Source: Gloeomargarita lithophora Alchichica-D10 (GTDB lineage Bacteria > Cyanobacteriota > Cyanobacteriia > Gloeomargaritales > Gloeomargaritaceae). From it: a stretch of DNA of 34,572 nt. A program made the translations under genes and the position numbers. The notes beneath the pieces are model-generated. The model was not told the DNA's origin. It did no database searches and worked only from the letters and a program-made list of their open reading frames with translations. Shown here piece after piece: positions 471-14,633 of the stretch. How positions within the stretch are numbered: the stretch's first letter is position 1; each line of letters begins with the position of its first letter. The stretch lies in assembly GCF_001870225.1 (NCBI RefSeq), contig NZ_CP017675.1, positions 3,014,711-3,049,282 on the forward strand, read 5' to 3'.

Positions 471-475
471 AGGGG
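471..475 (+). promoter_or_regulatory. Ribosome binding site of the FHA/CHAT gene
   Basis: AGGGG at 471-475 lies six bases before the GTG at 482 and decides that start, because the encoded N-terminus is a good signal peptide. Confidence 0.7.
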
Positions 476-481
476 TAGCTC

Positions 482-3400
482 GTGAATCAACCATTCACTT
501 CCTTTTTAAGGGTGTGTCTGCCATGTCTTGTGGCGGCGATACCTTGTATGTCTGTCCGGGCTCAAATCACGCCCAACGGTTTGGGTACACAGGTTAATCA
601 AAATGGTAATACATTTAATATCCAGGGCGGCACCCAATCCGGGCGCAATTTATTTCATAGCTTTCACCAATTCGGATTGAATCAAGGGCAGGTCGCCAAC
701 TTTTTTAGTAACCCCAATATCGCCAATATATTAGCCAGAGTCAATGGGGGTTCTGCGTCCTATATCAATGGATTAATTCAGGTTTTGGGCGGGAATAGCA
801 ATCTATTTTTAATGAATCCAGCGGGGATTATCTTTGGGCCGAACGCATCCTTGAATGTGCCAGCGGCCTTTACTGCCACCACTGCGGATAGAATTTTATT
901 TCCCGGTGGTAGTTTCAATGCCTATGGTAATAATGACTACGCCCAATTAGTCGGGGAACCGATTGGATTTGCCTTTGATCGCAAAGACCCAGCAGCGATA
1001 GTAAATGAGGGAAAATTAACCGTCAATCCGGGGCAAAGCGTCAGCCTCATTGCGGGACAAGTAATTAACACCGGCACCATTCAAGCCCCCAACGGCAACA
1101 TTACCATTACCGCTGTACCGGGGGAAAATTTAGTGCGTTTATCGCAAACGGGACAATTATTAAGTTTAGAATTTAACCCCCAACAGGCGGCACAATATGC
1201 GGATAATGCCGGGAATATCCCGATCACCCGCTTACCCGAATTACTCACTGGGGGCGGGGTAACAACCGTGACCCAAAATAGCAATGGTACGGTGAGTGTC
1301 GCCGGGTCTAATTTGCAAATTCCGACCGCAACGGGAACCACTATTATTTCTGGTAAATTAGATGTTTCTAGTGGCAATCAAACCGGTGGTAAGGTGGGGG
1401 TATTTGGCACCAATATCGCCTTAGTGAATAGTGAAATAAGTGCTTCGGGATTCACCGGCGGCGGCGAAATTTTGATCGGGGGTGAATTTCAAGGGAAAGG
1501 AACGCAACCCAACGCCCAATATACGTTTGTGAATAATACTTCCAAATTATCAGCCGATGCAATTAGTACGGGCGATGGGGGCAGGGTGATTGTCTGGGCG
1601 GATAAAAATACCCAATTTTCAGGAACGATTGCCGCTAAAGGTGGGGAATTGTCTGGAAATGGGGGTTTTGTCGAAGTTTCTGGGAAGGAAAACTTGGGAT
1701 TTCAGGGTAAAGTGGATACTTCCGCACCCCAAGGTAAAGCGGGCACCTTACTACTTGATCCCAACAATATCACCATCGATCTTATTGGTCTTAATGATTT
1801 GGAGATTTTAGATGGAGAGATTTTATTTGGAGATGGCGGGACTGGGGATTTTACCATCAGTACCTTAGCGTTAGTACTCGCCCTAGTCAACGGTGATGTG
1901 ATCCTGCAAGCTACTAATAATATTACTTTGCAAACCACTATTAATTACAACGGTATTGGAGCTAATCGTAACCTCACATTTGAAGCTAATAATAATATCT
2001 TTATCAATGCCGGAATTTTTGATAGTGCTCCCGGTGGCGAAAGTCTAAACGTGAATTTTCAAGCTAATTTTGATGGCATTGGGGGTGGGAATGTAGTATT
2101 AAATGATCCCCTAATTAAAACAGAGGGGGCAAATTTCACTGCTAGTGGTGTTGATATTAATGTTAAGGCTGGGTCAGTAATTGAAACTATTAGTCCTACA
2201 GGCAATTCTGGGAATATCACCCTCAATGGGACGGGGCAAGTCGCCATTTTCGGTGGTGCGACTGTAACTACTAGCACTAATGCGAATAATAATGCTGGAA
2301 ATATCATCATCAATGCGGTTAGTAATATCACAATAGATGATTTTTTATCCACCGGTGTGGTGGGTCTAGGTACTGGAAATGCGGGTAGTATTTCAATTGC
2401 TTCAACAAATGGCAATATCACCACAACTTCTCTTAATGCACAAACCCAAGGCACAGGAACCGCTGGAGATATTACGCTGTCCGCCTTGGGAATTACGACA
2501 ACGGGTGGCACGATTACTAATAGTTCAACGGGTGGAGGGACACCGGGTAATATCTCCCTGACAGCCACAGATAGTGGCATCAATATCGTTAATACCCAAA
2601 TCCTATCCGGGGGTGGAATGATTACTATTGATGGTACATCTACCTCTGGTTCGGGAGTGATTATTCAAAATAATAGTATTATTAACTCAGGTACAGGCGG
2701 TATTAACATTACTGGATTTACGAATGCCAATGTTGATGATACAGACGGTATTCTCATCAGTTCAGGCAGTGAAATTACCAGCCTTGATTCATTCATTGAG
2801 ATATTTGGAACCAATGAGGCATCGGGTGGTGATGATCAAAGTGGAGTGAGATTTAATACGGGTGGGAAAATCATAGGATTAGGCACTACCGATATTCAGA
2901 TTGATGGTCTGAGTTCCCTATCACCTGTCAACACATCGGGAGTGCGTTTGGAAACCGCTGGAACTGTAATTTCTGCTGACCAAGGAAATATCAATATTCG
3001 AGGGGGTGGACGGAATACTGATCCTTCAACCCGGTCTGTTTTTATAGATGCTACCAGTGATATTATTAGTAATAAAAATGTTTTTGTTGATGGAAATGGT
3101 GTAGTCCCAAATGGGGGTAATATCAACCTTTTAGGGAATATCAATGGGTCAGAAGTAGGTGTGAGTGGTGTGGGGATTACTCAAGTGAATAATATCAGTG
3201 CCTCTGGGGGAGATATTTTTGTCGGCGGTGAATTGGGAGCGACTATTTTAGCTGGAGGGATTGTATCAACCAGTGCGGTGGGATTTGATAGCGGTAATAT
3301 CACACTAGAATCTAGTGCGGGGGCAGTGAATATATTAGGGACGATTACAACCGAAGCATTAGGAAATGATAACGCTGGCAATATCACCATCAATGCCGCA

Positions 3401-6400
3401 GGTAATTTTAGTGCTGATACATTGATCTCAAGCAGTGTCACAGGGGTGGGCACGGGCAATGCCGGGGATATTTCGATTACTTCCGGGGCGAGTTTACTCC
3501 TTAACTCTAATTTATTTACAACTACAGATGGTACGGGCAAAGGGGGAAATATAACCCTAAATAGCACGGGTATTATTGATACTAATGCGGGTTTGGTTAG
3601 TAGTGCGTCAACCGGCGGTGGTGATGGTGGCAATATCACATTTAATGCGGGGGGAAATATCCTGGTTAATAATATTTTTAACACCGGTGAGGCGGGGGGA
3701 AATGTTAGCTTAACCAGTACCACTGGTGATATTGATTTATCAGCGGCATCCTTTGGGATTAGCACAGCGGGGCCAAGTTTGGGAAGTGGCGATATTACTT
3801 TGACCGCAAACAATGGCAGTATTATTAATGCCGCAAATCTCTTCAGCAGTTCGCTTGACTCTCAGAGTGGGAGCATTAATATCACCGCAGGTAGCGATGT
3901 TAATGTTGGTACCTTTAATAGTGCTAGTGATAACGGCATTGGTGGAAATATCACTGTGAACGCCGGGGGTGATATTTTTGTTGGCAATACGTTAGCAAAT
4001 GTCACGGTTTTGGGCAGTGGTACGGGGGGAGATATTAGTTTCACAAGTAGTAATGGATTGATTCAAATTATCGGCAATACTGATACGAGCACACTTGGTA
4101 CAGGTGTCGCCGGTTCAGTTAATTTAACGGCCAAAAATAGCATTAATGTCAGCACTCCCATTTTCACGGTAGCAAACGGGGCAGCGGCCAGTGGCGATAT
4201 TACGATCACCAGCATTAATAGCACAATTACAACCGATCAACTCAACAGCAGTAGTTTTACCTCTGGTGATGGTGGCAAAGTTACGCTTGGTGCGTTTGGT
4301 GATATTACGGTTAACGAAGAAATTTTTACCACTGCCAATGGTTTGGATCATGGGGGAGCGATTGAAATCACCAGTACCAACGGCAAGGTAGATATTATTG
4401 GTCAAGTGAATAGTCTTAGCACTTTTGCCAGTGCCGGTGATGTCACAATCACTGCCAAAAATTCGGTGAATCTTGCGGGTGGTTTACTTGCTCCTGGTGC
4501 GAATGGCGGCGGGGATGTCAGTGTGGTTAGTAATACCGATAGCATCACGATTGGCAATCTTAGTTTGAATACTATCGGCGGTAATGGCACTGGAGGAACT
4601 GTTAATTTACAAGCGGCAACGACCATTGATGTTCCCTTTGGAATCGAGACGACTTCTAACCTGCAAGGGGGGGATATTAAATTAATTGCCGGGGGGGATA
4701 TTACGGTGGGAAATGGTACCTTTTTAGGGTTGCGGAGTTTTGGTACAGCGAGTGGCAATGCTGGGACGATTCAAATCACCAGTACCGGAGGTAGTTTGAA
4801 TGTTAATTCCAACCCATTTGAAGGGATTATTGCCAGCGCCACAAGTGGCACCGCCGGGAGTATCAATATCAATGTTGCCAATGATGTCAATGTAACCGGT
4901 CAAATCACGAGTGGATCAACCAATAGTATTTCTAAAAGCACCACCATTACCGCCGGTGGGGATGTCAATGTGTTGGGTAAGGTGCAGGCCAGTTCTAACG
5001 TGGCGGGCGGGGCAGGATTGATCACTATTGACGGTGCGGACATAACCTTGACGGATGGCTGGGGTACGGGTAACGGGGGTGGGGTGAAAATTACTGCCGA
5101 TACTTTGACCACCGGGGCATCCAATTCCGGGAGTAGTGCTGTTAATTTAACAGTCGGAGATGTGAATTTCTTAGGTACTATTGAGGGGTTTGGTTTTTTG
5201 GGAGCCGGGACAATTACCATTACCGCCCCAACCGGCGGTGTATTTGTTAATGATACGGGGTTAGGATTAAATTTAACCCCAGGGGATTTAGCACAATTGA
5301 GCGGGTTTAGTACCGTCACCTTAGGAAGTAGCACTATTCCCTTAACCGTCGGTATAGGAGGAATTACCTTCACCTCATCAGCGGTTTTGGTTGGCAATAC
5401 GGTCAATGTTCAGGGAAATGTTACCAGCCCTGGCACACTCACCCTAGCAGCGGCTAATAATCTCAACGTAATTGGTGACTTAGATGCAACCGCAATTAAC
5501 TTAAACTCAGGGGGTGGTAGTAATTTTTCTGGTAATTTAACATCCGCCGGTGGGGCAATCAGTTTTAATATCGCCAGTGTGATCAATCTAACTCAAAACC
5601 TAAACTTGAACGACCCAACCACGATTCAAGCGGGTAGTATCAACGCCAATGGTTTTAATATCTTTAACACCAATTTTGATACCAATATCCTTGCGCCGGG
5701 AGCGATTAACTTAAATGACATCATTACTTCAGGCGGTGCGGTCACAATTAATAGTGGTAGTAGCGTGGCGATTAATAAAATCCAAACCTTTTCTCCAATG
5801 GGTTCAGGAGCGATTACAATTAGTGCATCCGGGGATATAAAAACCGGCAATTTGCAGACAGAAATCATTTCCTTTGCCGTTGATGGTGCGCCCATTTCCC
5901 TGACCAGTGGTGGCACGGTAACAACAGGGGATATTTTGACTTTTTCCCAAGGCGGTGGTAATGGGGGAGCCGTGAATATCATTGCCTCAACGGCGGTGAC
6001 AACTCAAGCGATTGATACTTCTTCTACTACTGGCATTGGTGGCAAAGTTTTCATTGACCCGATTGGTGATGTCCAAGTGAAATATATCAATACCCAAGGC
6101 GGGACTCAGGGTGGCGATGTGGATATTACGGCGGGACGATATTTCCGGGCAATTGGTGCATTTACTGACAACGGGGGAGTGACTGCGAGTATTTCTACAA
6201 GGGGTGGTAGTGGCGGTGCAATTACGATTAAACATGGGGGAAATGGCATTGTACCTTTTATCGTCGGAGATGCCAGTGTCAATGGCACTTTGGGAGCGAT
6301 TACCACCGGTGGATTTACTATTTTACCTTTTGAAGAATTTCTCAATTCAACCATTTTGGGCAATATCCGAATTCTTACTCTCGGTGCGGGTAGCAATAGC

Positions 6401-7822
6401 ATTGTAAATAACATTTTATTTTCCGTTGAATTAGGGGATTCTCCCTTAGAGATTGAGTTGGATGAAGGAGAAACAACCCTCGATACGGATGCAATTGATA
6501 CCGCTGAAATTGCTGATAGATTAGCCGCTGGTGACATTGAAGCCGTTGCCACCCTTGACCAATTATTTGCTGATCAGTTTGCGGATTTTTATGGTGCCGA
6601 ACCCCTGAATAATTTCCGCACCGTTGCTGAGGTACAAAATGCTTTAGCGGATATGGCCGCCCAAACCGGCACCCGCCCCGCTTTGTTGTATATCTTGGCC
6701 GATGAACGCCAACTGAATTTAGTTCTCATTCCTCCCGGTCGTGGTCAGGGTGTGGCAGATATTCCCATTTTAGAAGTTGTTTTGAATAATTTAGAATCAG
6801 AAGTCCAATTGCTCACCCAAAAACCAGGGGCACCAGCGACTTATCGTGCCGTACCTGAAGCGAAAGGGGAAGTACTAGCTAAAACCATTAGCCAATTTTT
6901 GAATGGCATCAAAGACCCCCGCCAACGAAATAGTGAAAACTATAAAAAACCGGCGCAACAACTCTATCAATGGTTAATCGCTCCCATTGAGGCCGCCCTG
7001 GAAGCAAATAAAATTGATACCATCATGCTGGTTCCCGATGTCGGATTGCGTACCCTGCCCTATGGAGCCTTATTTGATGGGCAACAATTCCTGATCGAAA
7101 AATACAGTATCGGCCAAATTCCTAGTATTAATCTTGTGGATATGAACTATAGGAAACTTCAAGGGAGTACCGTATTGGCGATGGGTGCTTCAGAATTTAA
7201 GCAACAACAACCATTACCTGCGGTTCCCATTGAGTTACAAACTATTGCCCAAGAATGGGGTGGCAAAGTTTTTATGAATCAAGAATTTACCATTGATAAT
7301 TTAGTCAAAGAACGACAACGTACCCAGTTTCAAATGTTGCATTTAGCGACCCACGGAGAATTTCGTCCTAGCCGCTTGACCGATTCTTATATTGAATTTT
7401 GGAATGACCGTTTATTGCTCAATCAATTGCGGGAATTACCCCTGCGTCAACCGCCGGTAGAATTGATGGTTTTGAGTGCGTGTCGCACAGCAGTTGGGGA
7501 TAAAAATACGGAGCTAGGGTTTGCCGGTTTAGCAGTGGGGGCGGGGGTAAAATCCGTGGTAGCCAGTTCCTGGTATGTGAGTGATGAGGGTACCTTGGGC
7601 TTGATGAGTGAATTTTATCAGCAACTACAAAATGCTCCCACTAAAGCTTTGGCTCTGCGACAGGTACAGATTGGTATGATTCGGGGTGATGTGCGCCTGC
7701 AAAACAATCAAATTGTGCGCCCCAATCGTCCTGCAATTAAAATAGATGCCAATATTGGGAATCGTCAACTCAGCCATCCTTACTACTGGGCGGCCTTCAC
7801 GATGATTGGTAGCCCGTGGTAA
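482..7822 (+). CDS. Secreted filamentous-haemagglutinin (TPS) protein with C-terminal CHAT protease domain
   Basis: The 2446-residue product starts at GTG 482 behind a good Shine-Dalgarno. Residues 1-27 form a signal peptide (hydrophobic core, cleavage after VRA). Residues 28 to about 270 match the TPS/haemagglutination-activity domain used for two-partner secretion, with NPNI near 77-80 and NPAG near 112-115. About 1700 residues of Gly/Asn/Thr/Ile-rich strands follow, with recurring GNI(T/S) turns, as in parallel beta-helices. Residues from about 2060 to the end are a CHAT (caspase-like) domain with His2291 in the ATHG motif and Cys2334 in LSACRTA, so both catalytic residues are present. No TpsB/ShlB outer-membrane partner lies in the window. 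Base usage is more AT-rich than in neighbouring metabolic genes, which may reflect composition bias or transfer. The natural substrate and the role of proteolysis are unknown. Confidence 0.93.
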   Translation: MNQPFTSFLRVCLPCLVAAIPCMSVRAQITPNGLGTQVNQNGNTFNIQGGTQSGRNLFHSFHQFGLNQGQVANFFSNPNIANILARVNGGSASYINGLIQVLGGNSNLFLMNPAGIIFGPNASLNVPAAFTATTADRILFPGGSFNAYGNNDYAQLVGEPIGFAFDRKDPAAIVNEGKLTVNPGQSVSLIAGQVINTGTIQAPNGNITITAVPGENLVRLSQTGQLLSLEFNPQQAAQYADNAGNIPITRLPELLTGGGVTTVTQNSNGTVSVAGSNLQIPTATGTTIISGKLDVSSGNQTGGKVGVFGTNIALVNSEISASGFTGGGEILIGGEFQGKGTQPNAQYTFVNNTSKLSADAISTGDGGRVIVWADKNTQFSGTIAAKGGELSGNGGFVEVSGKENLGFQGKVDTSAPQGKAGTLLLDPNNITIDLIGLNDLEILDGEILFGDGGTGDFTISTLALVLALVNGDVILQATNNITLQTTINYNGIGANRNLTFEANNNIFINAGIFDSAPGGESLNVNFQANFDGIGGGNVVLNDPLIKTEGANFTASGVDINVKAGSVIETISPTGNSGNITLNGTGQVAIFGGATVTTSTNANNNAGNIIINAVSNITIDDFLSTGVVGLGTGNAGSISIASTNGNITTTSLNAQTQGTGTAGDITLSALGITTTGGTITNSSTGGGTPGNISLTATDSGINIVNTQILSGGGMITIDGTSTSGSGVIIQNNSIINSGTGGINITGFTNANVDDTDGILISSGSEITSLDSFIEIFGTNEASGGDDQSGVRFNTGGKIIGLGTTDIQIDGLSSLSPVNTSGVRLETAGTVISADQGNINIRGGGRNTDPSTRSVFIDATSDIISNKNVFVDGNGVVPNGGNINLLGNINGSEVGVSGVGITQVNNISASGGDIFVGGELGATILAGGIVSTSAVGFDSGNITLESSAGAVNILGTITTEALGNDNAGNITINAAGNFSADTLISSSVTGVGTGNAGDISITSGASLLLNSNLFTTTDGTGKGGNITLNSTGIIDTNAGLVSSASTGGGDGGNITFNAGGNILVNNIFNTGEAGGNVSLTSTTGDIDLSAASFGISTAGPSLGSGDITLTANNGSIINAANLFSSSLDSQSGSINITAGSDVNVGTFNSASDNGIGGNITVNAGGDIFVGNTLANVTVLGSGTGGDISFTSSNGLIQIIGNTDTSTLGTGVAGSVNLTAKNSINVSTPIFTVANGAAASGDITITSINSTITTDQLNSSSFTSGDGGKVTLGAFGDITVNEEIFTTANGLDHGGAIEITSTNGKVDIIGQVNSLSTFASAGDVTITAKNSVNLAGGLLAPGANGGGDVSVVSNTDSITIGNLSLNTIGGNGTGGTVNLQAATTIDVPFGIETTSNLQGGDIKLIAGGDITVGNGTFLGLRSFGTASGNAGTIQITSTGGSLNVNSNPFEGIIASATSGTAGSININVANDVNVTGQITSGSTNSISKSTTITAGGDVNVLGKVQASSNVAGGAGLITIDGADITLTDGWGTGNGGGVKITADTLTTGASNSGSSAVNLTVGDVNFLGTIEGFGFLGAGTITITAPTGGVFVNDTGLGLNLTPGDLAQLSGFSTVTLGSSTIPLTVGIGGITFTSSAVLVGNTVNVQGNVTSPGTLTLAAANNLNVIGDLDATAINLNSGGGSNFSGNLTSAGGAISFNIASVINLTQNLNLNDPTTIQAGSINANGFNIFNTNFDTNILAPGAINLNDIITSGGAVTINSGSSVAINKIQTFSPMGSGAITISASGDIKTGNLQTEIISFAVDGAPISLTSGGTVTTGDILTFSQGGGNGGAVNIIASTAVTTQAIDTSSTTGIGGKVFIDPIGDVQVKYINTQGGTQGGDVDITAGRYFRAIGAFTDNGGVTASISTRGGSGGAITIKHGGNGIVPFIVGDASVNGTLGAITTGGFTILPFEEFLNSTILGNIRILTLGAGSNSIVNNILFSVELGDSPLEIELDEGETTLDTDAIDTAEIADRLAAGDIEAVATLDQLFADQFADFYGAEPLNNFRTVAEVQNALADMAAQTGTRPALLYILADERQLNLVLIPPGRGQGVADIPILEVVLNNLESEVQLLTQKPGAPATYRAVPEAKGEVLAKTISQFLNGIKDPRQRNSENYKKPAQQLYQWLIAPIEAALEANKIDTIMLVPDVGLRTLPYGALFDGQQFLIEKYSIGQIPSINLVDMNYRKLQGSTVLAMGASEFKQQQPLPAVPIELQTIAQEWGGKVFMNQEFTIDNLVKERQRTQFQMLHLATHGEFRPSRLTDSYIEFWNDRLLLNQLRELPLRQPPVELMVLSACRTAVGDKNTELGFAGLAVGAGVKSVVASSWYVSDEGTLGLMSEFYQQLQNAPTKALALRQVQIGMIRGDVRLQNNQIVRPNRPAIKIDANIGNRQLSHPYYWAAFTMIGSPW

Positions 7823-7824
7823 AA

Positions 7825-7892
7825 ACAAATAGATGAGATTTATGGCTACGCCACGCAGGCTATCGTTTGGTTCCAATAGATAGAGGTGTCCC
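7825..7892 (-). repeat. MITE-like element 2, inverted and shortened copy of element 1
   Basis: Read on the minus strand it begins GGGACACCTCTATCTATT (from 7892) and contains the word GCGTGGCGTAGCC, then an AT-rich end resembling the right end of element 1. The GC-rich stem of element 1 is missing. The far end (7825-7842) is too diverged to call a clean terminal repeat. It fills the whole gap between the FHA gene and the epimerase gene. Confidence 0.55.
7882..7886 (+). promoter_or_regulatory. Ribosome binding site of the epimerase gene, inside a repeat end
   Basis: AGAGG at 7882-7886 sits seven bases before the ATG at 7894. The same bases are the complement of the conserved ACACCTCT terminus of MITE-like element 2, so the mobile repeat end appears to supply the translation signal. 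Confidence 0.55.
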
Positions 7893-7893
7893 A

Positions 7894-8961
7894 ATGACTA
7901 CTGCCATAATTACTGGCTCCTGTGGACTAATAGGTTCTGAGAGTGTGCGCTTCATGGTTTCTCAAGGTTTTCAGGTGGTAGGAATTGATAATAATATGCG
8001 TTCGTATTTTTTGGGAGAGTATGCCTCTACCGATTGGAATCGGAAACTGCTTCAAGAAGCCCATAATCATCAGTATTTTCACCACAATATGGATATTCGA
8101 GACCGGGCATCAGTAGAAAAATTATTTGCTTGTTTCTCTACGGATATTGATTTAATCATCCATACGGCGGCACAACCCTCTCACGAATGGGCAGAAAAAG
8201 ACCCCCACACGGATTTTACAGTCAATGCTAATGGCACTTTAGCCCTACTAGAGGCTACCCGTTTGTATTGTCCCAATGCCGTTTTTATTTTTACTTCCAC
8301 CAATAAAGTATATGGGGATACGCCAAATTCTTTACCGCTACAAGAATTAGAAACTCGCTGGGAAATTGACCCCAATCATGTGTACTATCAGGGTATTGAT
8401 GAGCGGATGTCAATTGACAATTCTAAACATTCTTTATATGGTGCGTCAAAGCTGGCGGCTGATATTTTAGTCCAAGAATATGGCAAGTTTTTTGACATGA
8501 AAACGGCCTGTTTTAGGGGGGGATGCCTCACCGGGCCAGCCCATTCGGGTACTGAATTGCACGGATTTCTCTCTTATTTGATGAAATGTACCATTACGGG
8601 AACGCCCTATAGTATTTTTGGCTATAAAGGCAAGCAAGTTAGAGATAATATACACAGTAATGATCTGGTCAATGCTTTTTATCACTTCTATCAAAATCCT
8701 CGCTGTGGTGAAGTTTACAATATAGGTGGCTCCAGACACAGCAATTGCTCAGTTTTAGAGGCTATCACTATTTGTGAAACAATTGCAAACAAGAAATTGG
8801 ACTACACCTATGTTGATAATCATCGAGCCGGTGACCATATATGGTATATCTCCAATGTCAATAAATTTAGAGACCATTTTCCTGATTGGGAGTATAAATA
8901 CGGTCTAAGCGATATTCTGAAGGATATTTATCATGCCCAGATTGATAGGCTTGGACTCTAG
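7894..8961 (+). CDS. NAD-dependent epimerase/dehydratase, CDP-paratose 2-epimerase-like
   Basis: This 355-residue extended short-chain dehydrogenase carries the nucleotide-binding motif TGSCGLIG at the N-terminus, an acidic residue after the second strand (GIDNN), and the catalytic YGASK. The N-terminal layout, the FRGGCLTGP segment and the GEVYNIGG segment resemble CDP-paratose/CDP-tyvelose 2-epimerases, which act on nucleotide sugars for surface polysaccharides; the exact substrate is not established. A TTG at 7867 would add nine residues, but the ATG at 7894 has a well-placed AGAGG and begins at the usual MTTAIITG position. No other sugar-nucleotide genes are adjacent, so the pathway context lies elsewhere. 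Confidence 0.85.
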
Positions 8962-9055
8962 CAATCCCACCCATTAGCTTGTGTTCTGAAGCTACAGCGT
9001 TTTTTGCTAAAACACCTGTAAAACAAAGGGCTTAAGGCTCGTACCCCATCAGCGT

Positions 9056-9198
9056 GAAAAAGGCTGTATTTAGCGCACAGATATTCAGGAGAACCAAGTA
9101 CGGGGGCGGTGCCCCTGCGACCGCTGTTCTCATAGCGTTAGCGATAGCGTGCCGTAGGCATTAGCGTGGCGTAGCCATACCCAATTAAGATTGCTATA
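9056..9198 (+). repeat. Interspersed repeat A with GC-rich hairpin core
   Basis: The core at 9101-9122 (CGGGGGCGGTGCCCCTGCGA plus CC) is identical to that of repeat B. It can form a GCGGT (9106-9110) / ACCGC (9120-9124) stem. It is preceded by a stretch alignable with B and C (GAGAACCAAG before the core) and followed by CATAGC...GCGTGGCGTAGCC (9131-9176), shared with element 1. The right end AGATTGCTATAG matches the ends of B and C. The left end is decayed and its boundary approximate. Confidence 0.6.
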
Positions 9199-9216
9199 GG
9201 GCTAAAATAATTATTC

Positions 9217-9789
9217 TCATATCTCGTCGCCAAGTTCACGCAACATAGAAACGGTTACTGGAAGCCTCTGTTGCAAAAGAATTTTGAAGTATTCTTCCTT
9301 AGTCTTAGGCGGATTCCGTAATCGTTTTCTGACCGATTCTATCGCTTCCGCCACTTTAGCTTGCCGCAGATCCATAACACACGCAATGAAATCATCAGGG
9401 TGCTGCACCTCTATGTCGTATGGCAGTAATATCTGCTTGGGAAAATCTTTTTCATTAAAGGTGATAATAACATCCACACCCCCGCGGATAGCTACGGCAA
9501 GCACATGGCAATCCTTTGAATCTGGTAACTGCAATGATGGAATCAAAGATTCATAGCCAGTAATCAGACAGTCTCGAACACAGCTATTCATCAAGTTTTT
9601 GGTTCGAGTGAGTTGTTCTGAGTTCAGGTGAGGTTTATTTTTGAGTACATTTCGCATCCACTCATCGTGGATTTGATCTGTCCATTTAGCTCGAAAAAGA
9701 TCAGTCAGCGCCAGTTGCATTAACACATCTCGCAGAGGTGCTGGGTAAAGGACACAGGCATCATAAAGTGCTGTGTAGTGAGAATACAT
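9217..9789 (-). CDS. PIN-domain protein, probable toxin of an HTH/PIN toxin-antitoxin pair
   Basis: The 190-residue protein begins TALYDACVLYP, with the first acidic residue of a PIN fold just after strand 1. It has a conserved acidic cluster around PDSKDCHVLAVA and the late motif IITFNEKDFP, the usual order for PIN (VapC-like) ribonucleases. Its ATG at 9789 follows directly on the stop codon of the HTH gene with no intervening base, so translation is probably coupled. Upstream HTH plus downstream PIN is a known arrangement in bacterial genomes. The RNA target and actual toxicity are unknown. The C-terminal tail of about 55 residues goes beyond a minimal PIN domain. Confidence 0.8.
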   Translation of the reverse strand: MYSHYTALYDACVLYPAPLRDVLMQLALTDLFRAKWTDQIHDEWMRNVLKNKPHLNSEQLTRTKNLMNSCVRDCLITGYESLIPSLQLPDSKDCHVLAVAIRGGVDVIITFNEKDFPKQILLPYDIEVQHPDDFIACVMDLRQAKVAEAIESVRKRLRNPPKTKEEYFKILLQQRLPVTVSMLRELGDEI

Positions 9790-10251
9790 TTAATAACCCA
9801 TACCGAGTTCTTGAGCTTGGAGGACTAACTCATCCAAAACTTGGGTTCTGGCTTCGTCCGTTTTACGTTTATAATCCATCACATCTTGGAAGCGGACTCG
9901 ACGATGTTTCCCCACCGTTCGATAGGGAATCACTCCAGACTCCAGGAGCTTGATCAGAAAAGGGCGGGAAACGTTGAGCACATCCGCCGCCTCCTGCGTT
10001 GTGAATTCATAATGAATCGGAATGACGGTGACCGCATTACCGCGTGCCATCTGACTCAGAATATCTACCAACAAATAGAAGGCAGAAGCAGGGATAACGA
10101 CCGGATTCTCATGCCCATCTGCATCAACGACGCTAAGCCGCAGGTTGGGTTGCCCCTGGTTGGAGTATGACGCAAGAACCCGGCTACTGACTTGAGAAAG
10201 CTGTATCTCAGACTCCGTTGGTAGTTGGAGATTTTGGGTAGGGATTGCCAT
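9790..10251 (-). CDS. Excisionase/MerR-type HTH protein, probable antitoxin
   Basis: The 153-residue protein carries, at about residues 80-130, an excisionase-type winged HTH: FTTQEAADVLNVSRPFLIKL, then a wing with GKHRRVRFQDVMDYK. The N-terminal 80 residues are less distinctive and may help bind the toxin or dimerise. It ends in TAA at 9792-9790, immediately followed by the ATG of the PIN gene. As antitoxin it would be expected to bind the promoter region just above 10251 and repress its own operon; I see no clear palindromic operator there. The role is inferred from gene order and domains. Confidence 0.8.
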   Translation of the reverse strand: MAIPTQNLQLPTESEIQLSQVSSRVLASYSNQGQPNLRLSVVDADGHENPVVIPASAFYLLVDILSQMARGNAVTVIPIHYEFTTQEAADVLNVSRPFLIKLLESGVIPYRTVGKHRRVRFQDVMDYKRKTDEARTQVLDELVLQAQELGMGY

Positions 10252-10521
10252 AGTTTTAACCCACGAACATAACTAGTAAAGTCTATATTACTCATTAATC
10301 GAAATAAAAGCAATATCTGCAACAATCGCCACATTAGAAGAACTGTGGCTTGTAATTGCAACTGTATCGAAATGGGCTAAGGTTATCCCTCTCTAATTTA
10401 TTAGTTGAACTTATGAGAATGCCAATTCTCAAAAAATCACCCCTACCGAGGCTCGAATCAAGCCCCTGTAAAATGCCCAAGAAGGCTGGTCAAATTGATT
10501 TTCCCTATAATCACAACTTAG

Positions 10522-10614
10522 AAAAAATTTCCTTGGATTGGCACCTATGCGCCCCTAGAAGCAATGCTGGCAATTGCATCAATTATCAGCACGTTCCTAG
10601 TCATTCTAAAATAA
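10522..10614 (+). pseudogene. Possible C-terminal remnant of a membrane protein
   Basis: This frame opens after a TAG at 10519-10521 and reads FPWIGTYAPLEAMLAIAS, then IISTFLVILK and TAA at 10612-10614, which looks like a terminal transmembrane helix. A run of six A bases just before it (10522-10527) is a plausible frameshift site joining it to the upstream frame. No family is recognised, and chance cannot be ruled out. Confidence 0.2.
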
Positions 10615-10633
10615 TAAAAATATTAAGAAGAAC

Positions 10634-10680
10634 TATTACGGCAACGGCATTCTGAGGTTTTTTGTAAATTATAAGTTTAA
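10634..10680 (+). repeat. Degenerate island repeat, copy 1
   Basis: Reads TATTACGGCAACGGCATTCT followed by a T-rich run and ATAAGTTTAATTA. It aligns along about 45 bp with the copies at 10722 and 11111: a TACGGC(A/G)AC head, then a T-run, then TAA(A/T)TTTA. Confidence 0.5.
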
Positions 10681-10721
10681 TTATTTGTGAGGCAAAATCC
10701 AGTTTTGTTGGAAATAATAAC

Positions 10722-10776
10722 TATATGGCGACAAGATTTTACGGTTTTTCTATTAATTTTAAGTTCCAGCAGCTAT
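10722..10776 (+). repeat. Degenerate island repeat, copy 2
   Basis: Reads TATATGGCGACAAGATTTTA and continues with a T-rich run and ATTAATTTTAAGTTCCA. It is the best match to the copy at 11111. A possible inverted head (TTCGTCGCCAA) follows at 10777-10787. Confidence 0.5.
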
Positions 10777-10900
10777 TTCGTCGCCAACTTGGGATAAATG
10801 CGCTAGAAGCCATACGGCGACGGAGTTTTTTGCCCTAGAGAAGCAGACTACTGCCGCTCATCTCTTCCCCCATTAGCCTGAATTGAGATAATTATTCAGA

Positions 10901-10906
10901 TATAAT
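10901..10906 (+). promoter_or_regulatory. Possible -10 box in the island upstream of trpB
   Basis: A perfect TATAAT followed by G, but the -35 region 16-17 bp upstream (around CTGAAT) is weak. If real, the transcript would have a leader of over 300 bases before trpB, or make an unannotated RNA. Confidence 0.2.
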
Positions 10907-11110
10907 GTCTTTGTTTTACTAACATTAACCATTTTAATTTTAGTTAAATTTTATAGTTCTAGTTTTGTTGTGGCGAGACATTTATCAGATTTTTTAAGAA
11001 ACTTATTTATACAATTATTACCAAAAAAACACTCTAAAATTTCTACTAAAAATAGAATTTTAACTATTAAATAAGCTTTTTTAGATTTTTAGTAAAATTT
11101 TAACTAAAAC

Positions 11111-11160
11111 TTATACGGCAACAGGATTATCAGCTTATTTACTAATTTTAGAATTACCAC
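11111..11160 (+). repeat. Degenerate island repeat, copy 3
   Basis: Reads TTATACGGCAACAGGATTAT, then CAGCTTATTTACTAATTTTAGAATTACCA, aligning with copies 1 and 2. It lies about 60 bp upstream of trpB. Confidence 0.5.
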
Positions 11161-11225
11161 AGGATCGTCTATTCCTCCAGGGAAAAATGTATAATTTTGG
11201 GGATGGGAGCAGGTAAAACGCTGTG

Positions 11226-12431
11226 ATGGTTACGCAGGTGCCAGATGCTTTGGGTCGGTTTGGTCGCTTTGGCGGTAAGTACGTCCCGGAAACTTTGATG
11301 CCTGCCCTAGGGGAGTTGGAGCAGGTTTATTGGGCGTGTAAGGATGACCCCCAATTTCAGCAAGAATTACAACTTTTGTACAAAAATTATGTGGGACGGC
11401 CTACGCCGCTGTACTTTGCCGAACGTTTAAGTCGTTATTACCAGCAATCCGATGGCACTTATCCCCTGATATACCTCAAGCGGGAAGACCTGAATCACAC
11501 GGGGGCGCACAAAATTAACAATGCTTTGGGGCAGGTGTTGTTGGCGCAACGGATGGGCAAACAGCGGATTATTGCGGAAACGGGGGCGGGTCAGCATGGG
11601 GTGGCGACGGCGACGGTGTGTGCCCGGTTTGGCCTGGATTGTGTGATTTATATGGGCGTGCAGGATATGGAGCGTCAGGCTCTGAATGTATTTCGGATGC
11701 GTTTGTTGGGAGCGCGGGTACAGCCGGTGGCCGCCGGGACAGGAACGCTTAAGGATGCGACTTCCGAGGCGATTCGGGATTGGGTAACCAACGTGGAAGC
11801 CACCCACTATATCCTCGGTTCGGTGGCGGGGCCGCATCCCTATCCCATGATGGTGCGGGATTTCCAGAGTGTGATTGGGCAAGAGACCCGGGCGCAATGT
11901 TGGGAGTTGTGGCAGGGTTTGCCGGATGTGCTGTTGGCCTGTGTGGGGGGCGGCTCGAATGCGATGGGGCTGTTCCATGAATTTATCTCAGAACCGCGGG
12001 TGCGCCTGATTGGGGTGGAAGCGGCGGGCGAGGGGGTGAGTACCGGGAAACACGCCGCCACCTTGACCCAGGGGCGGGTGGGGGTGCTGCACGGGGCGAT
12101 GAGTTATCTTTTGCAGGATGACCAGGGGCAGGTGGTGGAGCCGCATTCGATCAGTGCCGGGTTGGACTATCCGGGGGTGGGGCCGGAGCATAGTTATTTG
12201 CAGGAAACCGGGCGGGCGACCTACGCCAGCGTCACCGACGGGGAAGCCCTGAACGCTTTACAACGGGTGAGCCAGTTGGAGGGGATTATTCCCGCCCTGG
12301 AAACCGCCCATGCCTTTGCCTATCTGGAAACCCTAGCACCGCAATGTGCCCCCGGCACCCGCATGGTCATCAACTGTTCTGGGCGGGGGGACAAGGATGT
12401 GCAAACGGTGATGAAACACCTGCACCTGTGA
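11226..12431 (+). CDS. trpB: Tryptophan synthase beta subunit
   Basis: TrpB condenses indole with L-serine to tryptophan using pyridoxal phosphate, normally in an alpha2beta2 complex with TrpA. The opening [16 protein letters not shown] is diagnostic. The PLP-binding lysine is Lys96 in [10 protein letters not shown], the phosphate-binding loop is GGGSNA near residues 241-246, and the C-terminus has [10 protein letters not shown]. About 401 residues is normal length. A GTG directly before the ATG could add one residue. TrpA is not adjacent; dispersed trp genes are usual in cyanobacteria. Confidence 0.97.
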
Positions 12432-12477
12432 ACCTACCTACCGCAGACGGATAGGGGGTGCGGGCGGTAATGAAATG

Positions 12478-13656
12478 CTATGCCCCCCGGCTAAACAACC
12501 GATAATACAAAGAAGTTCCCAACTCTTTGATGGGAAATAAAATGTAGGTGAAAGGGTTAATGGTAATAATAATGTTGCGAAAATCCCGCTTAGCGAGGGC
12601 AATAATTCCCTGGGCAACTCCTTGGGGAGACATCACCCCATAGGGATTAAGTTTGCTCTTAAAAGGGCCAAGAATTAGCTTGCGAATCACACAGATATTA
12701 TCCAAGCGTTTCAGGGTGATGAGATTGCCAATTAAACGCTTGCTCAATTCATATAAAGGACTCAAGGCGGGCGAAACCTCCGCTTCGGATGTATTGATCC
12801 AAATTTCTTTACTAGCTTTAGCTTCCGCACCGGTGACGGTACCTAAAAATAATTCCATCAGTTGCACTACCGATAGGGCATTTACCGATAGGGCTGTATC
12901 TATTGCCTCAAAATCCCTGCGTCCATATACATTTACCCCATGATTGATGATCAAAATATCTAATTTTTCTAAAACCGGTACCAGTTGCCTTTCTTGACCG
13001 ATTTGCCAGCCCACCACCTGAATTTTGGGCTGAGCGGTGAACCCTTCGGGATGGGTGGTCAAGGCCGTCACCTGCGCCCCGGCTCGCAACAATTCTTCGC
13101 ATAAAGCCTGCCCCAACGCCCCAGCCGCTCCCGTAACCCCGACTTTTTTGCCCTTCAGGGACAACCCCGTGCCCAACACCTTATCCACCAGGGGAAACAC
13201 GCCGCTGTAGTAGGCATTCACATTATCAAAATGGTGCCGCCAGTGATAGGTGCGATTCACCCACCAGGCGGACGGCGGCTCCACCAAAGCCCCCGGCTGA
13301 TGGTTGTAATCCGTATCCGCCACCGACCACACATAACGACGGGTCGCCCCCGCTAAAAATAAACCCGCATAAATCACCCCCACCCAAAAGCCCATCGCAC
13401 CCGTAAGTAAAGTAATTGTTAGTATAATCACCAGCAAAATTATAGACTCTGTAATGTCATGGTACAGTTGGGAGCGGCGAAAAGCCGTCAGGGAAACCAA
13501 GGATAAATCCCGGCGATAGGCGGCGTGATGGCGGTTATGCCAGCGTTCCAGGGCGGGGATTTGGTGGCAAAGGGCGTGGTAGGCATCCCGTAAAATTTCC
13601 GTCAAGACGAGAGAACCGCAGGCAGTAGCGGCAAAAGCCAGCCAATTCACACCCAT
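12478..13656 (-). CDS. Bifunctional sterol desaturase/short-chain dehydrogenase-like protein
   Basis: The N-terminal half (about 1-165) is a membrane fatty-acid-hydroxylase/sterol-desaturase module with histidine boxes in DAYHALCH, WHNRHH and HWRHH and hydrophobic segments between them, fitting a di-iron site. The C-terminal half is a Rossmann short-chain dehydrogenase: GVTGAAGALG for cofactor, INHGVN, and YELSK as the catalytic Tyr/Lys pair. This fusion is a recognised cyanobacterial family with no firmly established substrate. The ATG at 13656 gives an N-terminus of the usual length; a TTG at 13686 would add ten residues. It converges on trpB and diverges from the PTPS gene. Confidence 0.85.
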   Translation of the reverse strand: MGVNWLAFAATACGSLVLTEILRDAYHALCHQIPALERWHNRHHAAYRRDLSLVSLTAFRRSQLYHDITESIILLVIILTITLLTGAMGFWVGVIYAGLFLAGATRRYVWSVADTDYNHQPGALVEPPSAWWVNRTYHWRHHFDNVNAYYSGVFPLVDKVLGTGLSLKGKKVGVTGAAGALGQALCEELLRAGAQVTALTTHPEGFTAQPKIQVVGWQIGQERQLVPVLEKLDILIINHGVNVYGRRDFEAIDTALSVNALSVVQLMELFLGTVTGAEAKASKEIWINTSEAEVSPALSPLYELSKRLIGNLITLKRLDNICVIRKLILGPFKSKLNPYGVMSPQGVAQGIIALAKRDFRNIIITINPFTYILFPIKELGTSLYYRLFSRGA

Positions 13657-13766
13657 ACCTAGCAACAACGGTACTACTCTAGGCAATTTTGCGGAAGGAA
13701 TGCAAGCACACCCTGGCAGGTTGGCCGGTGAATCGGTAGAATTAGAAAGGCTTTTTTAGAATTTCC

Positions 13767-14633
13767 ATGCGTTGTATTATTAACCGGCGGGCGCAGTTTT
13801 CCGCCAGCCATTGTTACAGCATTCCCCAGTGGTCAGAGGCGGAAAATTTCCGCTGTTTTGGTAAGGGGAGCCAGTTTCCCGGCCACGGACACAATTACAT
13901 TTTATATGTGGCGATGGTGGGGGAAATTGATGAATGTGGCATGGTTTTGAATCTATCGGAGGTAAAGCACGTCATTCGCCGGGAGGTGACCGAACCCCTG
14001 GACAATAGTTTTTTGAATCGGGCGTGGCCGGAATTTTCCCAAACCCTGCCCACCACGGAATTCATCGCCTACGCCATTTGGCACCGCCTCGTTCCCCATT
14101 TGCCCCTGGCGCAGATTCAGTTGTATGAACACCCCCAACTTTGGGCGGAATACCAAGGAGATGCCATGAACGCCTATTTGACCGTTGGAACCCACTTCAG
14201 TGCCGCCCACCGTTTGGCGCGGGTGGATTTTTCGGAGACGGAAAACTACACCACCTACGGCAAATGCGCCCGTCCCCACGGCCACGGCCACAATTATCAC
14301 CTGGAGGTGACGGTGCGGGGGAAAATTGACCCGGTGACGGGAATGCTGGTGGATTTGGTTGCCCTGCAAGGGGTGATTGACCGGGAGGTGGTGGAGCCGT
14401 TGGATCACACCTTTTTGAACAAAGATATTCCCTACTTTGGGGACGTGGTGCCGACCGCAGAACATATTGCCCTGTATATTGTCCAGCTTTTGCAAGAACC
14501 AGTCCGCAGGTTGGGAGCCGCATTGCACAAGGTTAAATTGGTGGAAAGCCCCAACAATTCCTGTGAAATTTATGCAGATGATGTGCGAACGGTAACCCCA
14601 GTACCTTCCTTAGCTGTGGCGGCCAGTCGGTGA
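13767..14633 (+). CDS. Tandem 6-pyruvoyl-tetrahydropterin synthase/QueD-like protein
   Basis: The 288-residue protein contains two copies of the PTPS fold. Domain 1 (about 1-130) has FSASHCY and PGHGHNY; domain 2 (about 133-270) has FSAAHRL and HGHGHNYHLEV. The three zinc-binding histidines are present in each copy. Such enzymes act on dihydroneopterin triphosphate, giving 6-carboxytetrahydropterin (queuosine/7-deazaguanine pathway) or pyruvoyl-tetrahydropterin; the two cannot be told apart here. Its last codons overlap the start of gun4 by four bases (GTGA), implying translational coupling. Its own ATG at 13767 follows the divergent spacer with the desaturase gene. Confidence 0.88.
   Translation: MRCIINRRAQFSASHCYSIPQWSEAENFRCFGKGSQFPGHGHNYILYVAMVGEIDECGMVLNLSEVKHVIRREVTEPLDNSFLNRAWPEFSQTLPTTEFIAYAIWHRLVPHLPLAQIQLYEHPQLWAEYQGDAMNAYLTVGTHFSAAHRLARVDFSETENYTTYGKCARPHGHGHNYHLEVTVRGKIDPVTGMLVDLVALQGVIDREVVEPLDHTFLNKDIPYFGDVVPTAEHIALYIVQLLQEPVRRLGAALHKVKLVESPNNSCEIYADDVRTVTPVPSLAVAASR

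Follow-up and report, generated by a model that had tools for sequence, protein, structure and literature searches.

A predicted CHAT endopeptidase on two-partner-secretion exoproteins of Gloeomargarita lithophora and other cyanobacteria

Why should an exported giant protein end in a caspase-like protease domain? The question is raised by a gene in a 34,572-nucleotide stretch of Gloeomargarita lithophora Alchichica-D10 (the window; NZ_CP017675.1, positions 3,014,711 to 3,049,282), which is the terminal part of a 3,049,282-base single-contig genome. The gene (window positions 482-7822, forward strand) is an intact frame from GTG to TAA and encodes a 2446-amino-acid (aa) protein that joins a two-partner secretion (TPS) domain to a C-terminal CHAT domain. 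A preliminary description of this DNA regarded the product as a protein exported through a TpsB pore, with an intact CHAT protease domain that might act at the cell surface or after release. Our analyses indicate that the protein is very probably an exported TPS exoprotein and predict, with good confidence, that its CHAT domain is an active protease. As to its task, we tentatively propose a CHAT endopeptidase exported by two-partner secretion that most likely processes or releases TPS exoproteins. The architecture is common in cyanobacteria and not a one-off; TPS and CHAT are known families, and their fusion is already visible in public sequence.

The N-terminus reads by eye as a signal peptide (VNQPFTSFLR / VCLPCLVAAIPC / MSVRA-Q) and is followed immediately by the TPS domain (Pfam PF05860, E-value 3.4e-43), while the CHAT domain (PF12770, E-value 2.2e-66) covers profile positions 2-289 of 289. 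The catalytic dyad, His2291 and Cys2334 (numbered with the GTG codon as residue 1), lies exactly at the positions named in the preliminary description, whose prediction of export by the TpsB route from the signal peptide and TPS domain is likewise supported by the sequence read, the PF05860 match and the cysteine depletion described below. At an E-value of 0.001, Pfam gave no family between the TPS and CHAT domains, no TPR repeat family in the protein and no match to the Peptidase_C14 (metacaspase/orthocaspase) profile; PADLOC defence models gave no family for this protein or for three other CHATs of the same genome.

To see how widespread the architecture is, genome contigs were scanned with four CHAT sequences of this genome, and local profiles for TPS, TpsB and CHAT were applied to 79 loci (from the best 80 of a longer list). 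TPS and CHAT occur together in 56 frames: this genome contributes two, and 50 of the 79 loci contribute 54. Contig ends interrupt some of the remaining loci. Oscillatoria sp. PCC 10802, a cyanobacterium that can be cultured, also has a TPS-CHAT. These frames range from 887 to 3420 aa in total length and from 172 to 2716 aa in the stalk, with a CHAT region of about 330 aa. An even draw of 59 genomes across the phylum had CHAT in 23 and TPS above the cut-off in 18. Relatives of the CHAT of L020, an intact paralog in the same genome, occur at an E-value of 1e-60 or better in 96 of 145 genomes and 58 of 87 genera of the cyanobacterial class, a figure that describes the spread of the CHAT type, the TPS part lying outside the count. 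There are four such matches in this genome and up to eight in one genome, and among the matches listed in this survey many frames measure either 440-530 aa or more than 1100 aa. One relative (G141:C1:1795611-1796612) lies within a 5616-aa open frame.

The preliminary description had set the exported protein against the best-studied CHAT proteases elsewhere, described there as acting in the cytoplasm. Its case for two-partner export and an intact dyad stood, but this contrast proved too narrow: in nine well-assembled genomes, a simple and lax signal-peptide rule was passed by 55 of 117 CHAT frames, namely by 49 of the 54 highest-scoring versus 6 of the 63 lowest-scoring. What counts here is the contrast between the two groups under one rule. 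Four of the five fused frames in these genomes pass it, L127 being the one that fails. A quick tree was then computed from 115 CHAT rows, comprising 82 from the nine-genome set (domain free of stops, 250 aa or longer and scoring 60 bits or more), five of this genome and 28 from named loci (six of the Gloeomargaritales type or nearest to it and 22 random). The exported and cytoplasmic labels of the 82 rows follow a bit-score cut of 179 and take no account of the signal peptide; L167 fell in the exported clade despite its label and is recounted as exported in the cysteine counts below. All 23 TPS-fused rows, together with 7 cut and 10 unfused exported rows, form one set of 40 (Shimodaira-Hasegawa-like approximate likelihood ratio test support 99), joined with a support of 92 to a sister set of 22 rows (support 98). 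Of the 12 unfused high-scoring CHATs near TPS matches (this genome's split gene excluded), 11 belong to the sister set and the twelfth to the set of 40. The window CHAT clusters with L021 and L031 (support 99), and L199 is a flagged long branch. The TPS-fused label requires nine changes on the tree, a distribution that fits a single origin of the fusion with later TPS loss or gain, in an order that it leaves unsettled. Short exported frames of the TPS-CHAT clade (450-461 aa) were seen in four of six genomes with a fused copy (G014, G050, G002 and Gloeomargarita) and, by the tree, in none of four genomes without one.

Exported proteins tend to be poor in cysteine. The whole window protein has cysteines only at aa 12, 15, 22 and 2334, the first three within the signal peptide; from the TPS start onwards, 2420 residues contain a single cysteine, the catalytic Cys2334, where the frequency seen in cytoplasmic-class CHATs (9.5 per 1000 aa) would predict about 23. 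The 56 TPS-CHATs average 1.1 and 50 unfused exported-class CHATs 2.7 cysteines per 1000 aa, versus 9.5 in both 27 cytoplasmic-class CHATs and 91 control frames (shadow frames included). Four other TPS proteins counted in the same genome have 1-3 cysteines each, hence the stalks are cysteine-poor with or without a CHAT. The catalytic cysteine is the sole one in 32 of the 56 frames (in two of these the catalytic motif is SSC); 22 of the remaining 24 carry two cysteines at most eight residues apart in the stalk or linker, in an arrangement reminiscent of a disulfide loop. A single frame of the 56, L104, has an additional cysteine within the CHAT. The comparison that holds the fold equal is that of the CHAT domains themselves, where exactly one cysteine is present in 30/30 TPS-fused or cut rows and 49/58 exported rows (79/88 pooled) versus 2/27 cytoplasmic-class rows. 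The rows are related to one another, and the value of a Fisher test on these counts is therefore no true probability. This pattern supports export together with selection to keep the catalytic thiol. Since the only cysteine beyond the signal peptide is the catalytic one, a single point change or a single thiol probe would test the protein.

Is the CHAT domain likely to cut? Modelling, which the preliminary description had suggested, yielded a confident CHAT fold for aa 1990-2446 (AlphaFold2, 69 sequences; mean predicted local distance difference test score [pLDDT] 90.1, predicted template modelling score [pTM] 0.90). Compared by Foldseek and VIA-align, the module matches Csx29/TPR-CHAT at Z 23-30, separase at Z 18-26, DdvA at Z 21, SAVED-CHAT at Z 20 and gingipains at Z 18.5-19.9; a sequence-profile search of the PDB at an E-value of 0.01 gave no match, whereas the fold search did. 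According to this model, the CHAT module has a caspase-like fold. The model of the L020 paralog (aa 28-1227) is beta-rich and of low confidence (mean pLDDT 65, pTM 0.42), and one of its ends matches the TPS domains of HMW1, EtpA and HxuA (Z 20-28), the other Csx29 (Z 21).

Loss of the catalytic residues across orthologs, which would speak against a protease, was not seen. In 95 CHAT rows chosen for similarity, the histidine is present in 93 and the cysteine in 93, the exceptions being gaps in cut, fragmentary or masked rows; in the tree set, which includes a less biased genome sample, both residues are found in 57/57 exported, 23/23 TPS-fused and 7/7 cut rows and in 25/28 cytoplasmic-class rows. 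In three cytoplasmic-class CHATs (L174, L175 and L176, from G040, G022 and G046), the aligned columns lack at least one of the two dyad residues, and pseudo-CHATs may exist in that class. At the column of Asp2368, the exported, TPS-fused or cut rows have aspartate in 86 of 87 cases and the cytoplasmic-class rows in 19 of 28; that this residue belongs to the S1 pocket is presumed here as a lead, on which a literature check found nothing. Against five relatives of the Gloeomargaritales type, the window protein shows 71-90 % identity in the TPS domain, 39-47 % in the stalk, 34-44 % in the linker and 58-65 % in the CHAT domain. Moreover, the ratio of nonsynonymous to synonymous substitution rates (dN/dS) is lower in the CHAT than in the stalk in 12 of 12 pairs (0.045-0.265 versus 0.12-0.48), the size of the ratios being not firm because a high CHAT identity guided the choice of most pairs and dS exceeds 1 in at least one part of three pairs. 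These comparisons indicate that the CHAT is under purifying selection in the relatives.

If the protein is exported, through which pore might it pass? The genome contains seven CHAT matches at six loci, nine TPS matches and two TpsB genes of the ShlB family, both of them far from the window, which itself has no TpsB gene, as the preliminary description had stated. TPS and CHAT are combined at three loci: the window gene, the intact 1227-aa paralog L020 and a split copy, L021. A 439-aa CHAT with a signal-like N-terminus is close kin, and a 612-aa TPR-CHAT is more distant. In the congeners VI4D9 (Gloeomargaritales cyanobacterium VI4D9, the closest named relative among the matches listed) and G133, a TpsB gene and a TPS-CHAT gene point away from each other; in G133 the two frames are 194 bp apart. 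The TpsBs beside congener TPS-CHATs are 66-68 % identical to one of the two ShlB-family genes of this genome, and that of VI4D9 is 66 % identical to P0007 of the Gloeomargarita genome. Relatives of P0007 are present in all seven genus genomes searched, one of which is without a TPS-CHAT match. P0007 also matches Omp85 weakly; a BamA-type Omp85 gene (by score) sits elsewhere in the genome, so neither TpsB candidate need be BamA. On sequence grounds, P0007 is the likeliest TpsB partner, though unproven. The signal peptide, the cysteine depletion and the TpsB linkage in the two congeners disfavour retention in the cytoplasm and agree with the earlier supposition that the protein leaves the cell.

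Several related frames are broken. In L021 (8177-11965), the TPS and CHAT halves of the paralog lie in two different frames, and a congener keeps an intact relative, L031. No syntenic ortholog of the window gene was found in four stretches of the congeners G099, G072 and G133, which gave only diverged or broken relatives; L237 of G099 (4744-14056) is one that was broken or rearranged: a frame that shares 73 % identity with part of the window protein across 422 aa precedes a reverse frame and, behind it, a stalk-CHAT frame of 2130 aa. In G002 (C1:1805008-1809201, forward strand), TPS and ShlB matches fall within one 1476-aa frame that looks like a TpsA-TpsB fusion.

High-scoring unfused CHATs also lie near TPS genes more often than expected. 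The linkage test used the positions of CHAT, TPS, TpsB and DUF928 matches in ten genomes, a limit of 10 kb and 2000 random placements; 123 of 132 CHAT rows entered it, five on smaller contigs of G040 and four second pieces or weak extra rows being omitted, as were the TPS, TpsB and DUF928 rows of the smaller G040 contigs and weak TpsB rows. Among unfused CHATs of at least 190 bits, the high-scoring class that mostly bears a signal peptide, 13 of 52 have a TPS match at a distance of 10 kb or less (random mean 1.15, maximum 5); the middle score band gave 2 of 11 (0.26 expected) and CHATs below 140 bits 1 of 53 (0.88 expected). A DUF928 match lies within 10 kb of 9 of the 52 (1.11 expected), and DUF928 may be a third part of the CHAT/TPS system. 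At seven places in G040, G027, G058 and G002, DUF928 was seen 20-586 bp from CHAT matches. Linkage extends beyond cyanobacteria: in Caballeronia sp. M1242 and C. grimmiae, CHAT-TPR, ShlB and TPS genes are consecutive inside a type VI cluster, and Paraburkholderia PGU19 repeats the CHAT-TpsB-TpsA order, which makes three Burkholderiaceae replicons in all. The CHAT-TPR protein of M1242 seems, by eye, to have a signal peptide from an internal start. On plasmids of Nostoc UHCC 0302 and Gloeothece PCC 7424, a CHAT adjoins TPS and TpsB-like genes.

Given these observations, we tentatively favour, with slightly less than even confidence, TPS exoproteins as a candidate substrate of the CHAT. The window protein would be a TpsA-type (type Vb) exoprotein with a CHAT cysteine endopeptidase as its effector part. 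The signal peptide would carry it across the inner membrane, and it would then be threaded through a TpsB pore (nearest candidate G000:C1:247869-249812). The CHAT module, borne at the tip of a long stalk, would then fold beyond the cytoplasm, either in the periplasm or at the surface. There it could cut its own variable linker or sibling TPS exoproteins and so bring about maturation or release, by analogy with FhaB processing. Work on TPS proteins is favoured over work on outside targets because the signal-peptide CHATs that lack a TPS domain would be periplasmic unless exported further.

A number of observations weigh against this proposal. The signal-peptide rule is passed by 38 of 91 control frames as well (loci of this genome, shadow frames included). 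A TPS match within 10 kb is missing for 39 of the 52 high-scoring unfused CHATs. Of the 13 linked ones, two (L135 and L138) adjoin a fused TPS-CHAT, and a third belongs to the split TPS-CHAT of Gloeomargarita, as its CHAT half. CHATs below 140 bits, taken as cytoplasmic, are near TPS or TpsB in 5 of 53 cases (1.23 expected) and near DUF928 in 5 of 53 (0.95 expected). In five of ten plasmid regions opened, the CHAT has no TPS neighbour (for four of these the incomplete PLSDB gene table was the only source), and the way queries or hits were selected biased the sample towards the five with TPS neighbours. Another genome of the genus, G087, has a TpsB relative and no TPS-CHAT match at an E-value of 1e-60, hence the TpsB also serves other proteins or another purpose. 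Finally, the survey for linked substrates that the preliminary description had proposed gave no linked immunity or substrate gene: beside fused TPS-CHATs no substrate or partner gene recurs in the length-limited stretches around the 79 loci, some of them cut by contig ends, with the Pfam scan covering representatives of six recurrent neighbour clusters. These six (dephospho-CoA kinase, apolipoprotein N-acyltransferase, a trypsin-TPR protein, aminotransferase, ABC ATPase and PmbA/TldD; the histidine-kinase-like protein of L058 was drawn into one of them) are housekeeping or general neighbours, which we read as shared synteny.

Close behind the TPS-processing proposal, and rather unlikely when taken by itself, comes a protease displayed on or shed from the surface. 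Its stalk would be a spacer, and its targets would lie outside the cell, for instance surface proteins of neighbours, grazers or partners in self-recognition. The TPS route and the very variable stalk length would suit such a spacer, several CHATs of this type occur per genome, the fold resembles that of the secreted gingipains, and the stalk diverges faster than the CHAT. However, a surface protease leaves unexplained both the clustering of unfused exported-class CHATs near TPS genes and the CHAT-TpsB-TpsA order in Burkholderiaceae, and no linked target gene was found in the neighbour clusters scanned.

More doubtful is a broader version, in which exported CHATs would be a general proteolytic arm of two-partner secretion. 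In cyanobacteria and Burkholderiaceae it would act in trans, as signal-peptide TPR-CHATs encoded next to TpsB and TpsA; the cis form would be the TPS-CHATs of cyanobacteria, in which the fused CHAT would anchor the stalk and cut its own variable linker on a signal. Folding of the CHAT in the periplasm would stop translocation, and the fused form would thus combine in one chain the FhaB prodomain and a processing protease.

We consider it improbable that the CHAT does not cut at all and serves as a folding, anchoring or binding domain that holds the exoprotein at the cell in the manner of the FhaB prodomain. A folded C-terminal module could indeed halt translocation, and the available text of one study reports that the FhaB prodomain is retained in the periplasm (PMC8263021). 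If catalysis were dispensable, pseudo-versions would be expected, but all 87 exported-class, TPS-fused or cut rows keep the dyad, and the catalytic cysteine is retained where most other cysteines have been lost.

A contact-dependent toxin similar to CdiA, with a toxic C-terminus and immunity provided by a downstream gene, is very improbable. The order of signal peptide, TPS domain, stalk and C-terminal effector is the same, but here the CHAT is conserved and the stalk variable, in contrast to the highly variable C-termini of CdiA; no recurrent non-housekeeping neighbour was found in the clusters scanned and no pretoxin family in the Pfam scan of the window proteins, and an immunity gene would not fit immediately behind the stop codon, where the next frame, an epimerase, begins after 44 bp. 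A polymorphic toxin is disfavoured by its conserved C-terminus and missing immunity gene. Least probable of all is that the protein is cytoplasmic or the gene decaying and its architecture uninformative on CHAT biology. In favour of it, the L021 paralog of this genome is spread over two frames, and in the congener G099 a frame with the TPS part is separated from one with stalk and CHAT. Against it, the window gene is intact, its CHAT is under purifying selection in relatives, and the signal peptide, TPS domain and cysteine depletion speak against a cytoplasmic protein.

In a literature search with subscription papers mostly outside its scope, we recognised no paper on TPS-CHAT proteins or exported CHATs; the main text of a study of the Anabaena exoproteome (PMC4390845) contains none of the terms agglutinin, CHAT, TPR and two-partner. 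The available texts on cyanobacterial caspase-like proteins deal with orthocaspases and HetF. One CHAT class is physically joined to an export system, and this class, marked by export and a tie to two-partner secretion, seems to be unstudied. If its members do cut TPS proteins, giant exoproteins would possess a built-in mechanism of maturation or shedding. The features of the gene are collected in Table 1. Elsewhere in the window, PIN-domain and helix-turn-helix genes adjoin one another in a toxin-antitoxin-like arrangement (9217-10251, reverse strand).

Table 1. Features of the TPS-CHAT gene and its product, in window coordinates.
Feature	Position	Strand	Basis or remark
AGGGG, ribosome-binding-like, before the GTG start	471..475	+	position only
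TPS-CHAT gene, 2446 aa + stop	482..7822	+	
Signal peptide, aa 1-27, inferred cleavage after VRA	482..562	+	by eye
TPS secretion domain, aa 28-241	563..1204	+	PF05860; TIGR01901 adhes_NPXG at aa 58-136
Stalk, aa 242-1989, Cys-free	1205..6448	+	putative beta-helix, from low-confidence L020 paralog model
Linker, helical segment and first half of CHAT module, aa 1990-2155	6449..6946	+	AlphaFold2 model
First half of CHAT module (the module aligns with Csx29 and separase over almost its whole length)			putatively pseudo-caspase-like
CHAT domain, aa 2156-2444	6947..7813	+	PF12770; fold matches
His2291 codon, dyad	7352..7354	+	
Cys2334 codon, dyad; sole Cys past the signal peptide	7481..7483	+	
Asp2368 codon, WYVSD motif	7583..7585	+	conserved in exported class

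How does the protein compare with known systems? The closest fold match is Csx29 of the type III-E CRISPR Craspase, whose two-part CHAT fold is matched over almost all 457 aa with a root-mean-square deviation of 3.2-3.8. Csx29 is a TPR protein within a cytoplasmic RNA-guided complex, whereas the window module is only 12-15 % identical to it, lacks TPR repeats, stands on a TPS stalk and looks exported. Gasdermin-cutting CHATs and the specificity of separase are further parts of the known CHAT literature. FhaB, HMW1, EtpA and HxuA share with the window protein the signal peptide, the N-terminal TPS domain and the stalk; to our knowledge HMW1, EtpA and HxuA carry no protease. For FhaB, the text available to us describes processing proteases that are separate proteins, three in number, two of them periplasmic and one at the surface, with the prodomain kept in the periplasm, and calls the retention and release of FhaB-derived proteins an outstanding question for TPS systems (PMC8263021). 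Unlike FhaB, the window protein appears from its sequence to have the protease domain built in. The C-termini of CdiA are highly variable according to the part of the source consulted (PMC5422565); the window protein is alike in overall layout but ends in a conserved CHAT, with no gene room directly downstream. HetF, described in the available text as a membrane protein with one predicted transmembrane segment and a CHAT in aa 1-555 (PMC8406250), belongs to the same family. It and other cytoplasmic-class CHATs differ from the TPS-CHATs in their cysteine content (9.5 versus 1.1 per 1000 aa). The gingipains RgpB and Kgp (family C25) are caspase-fold cysteine proteases like the predicted window module; they are secreted via the type IX system and are not known to have a TPS domain. 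The anti-sigma factor DdvA (PDB 8rot, 8rw5), the C-terminal part of which matches the CHAT module, differs in being, by its title, a transmembrane regulator, and it is a possible earlier example of a CHAT-like domain outside the cytoplasm.

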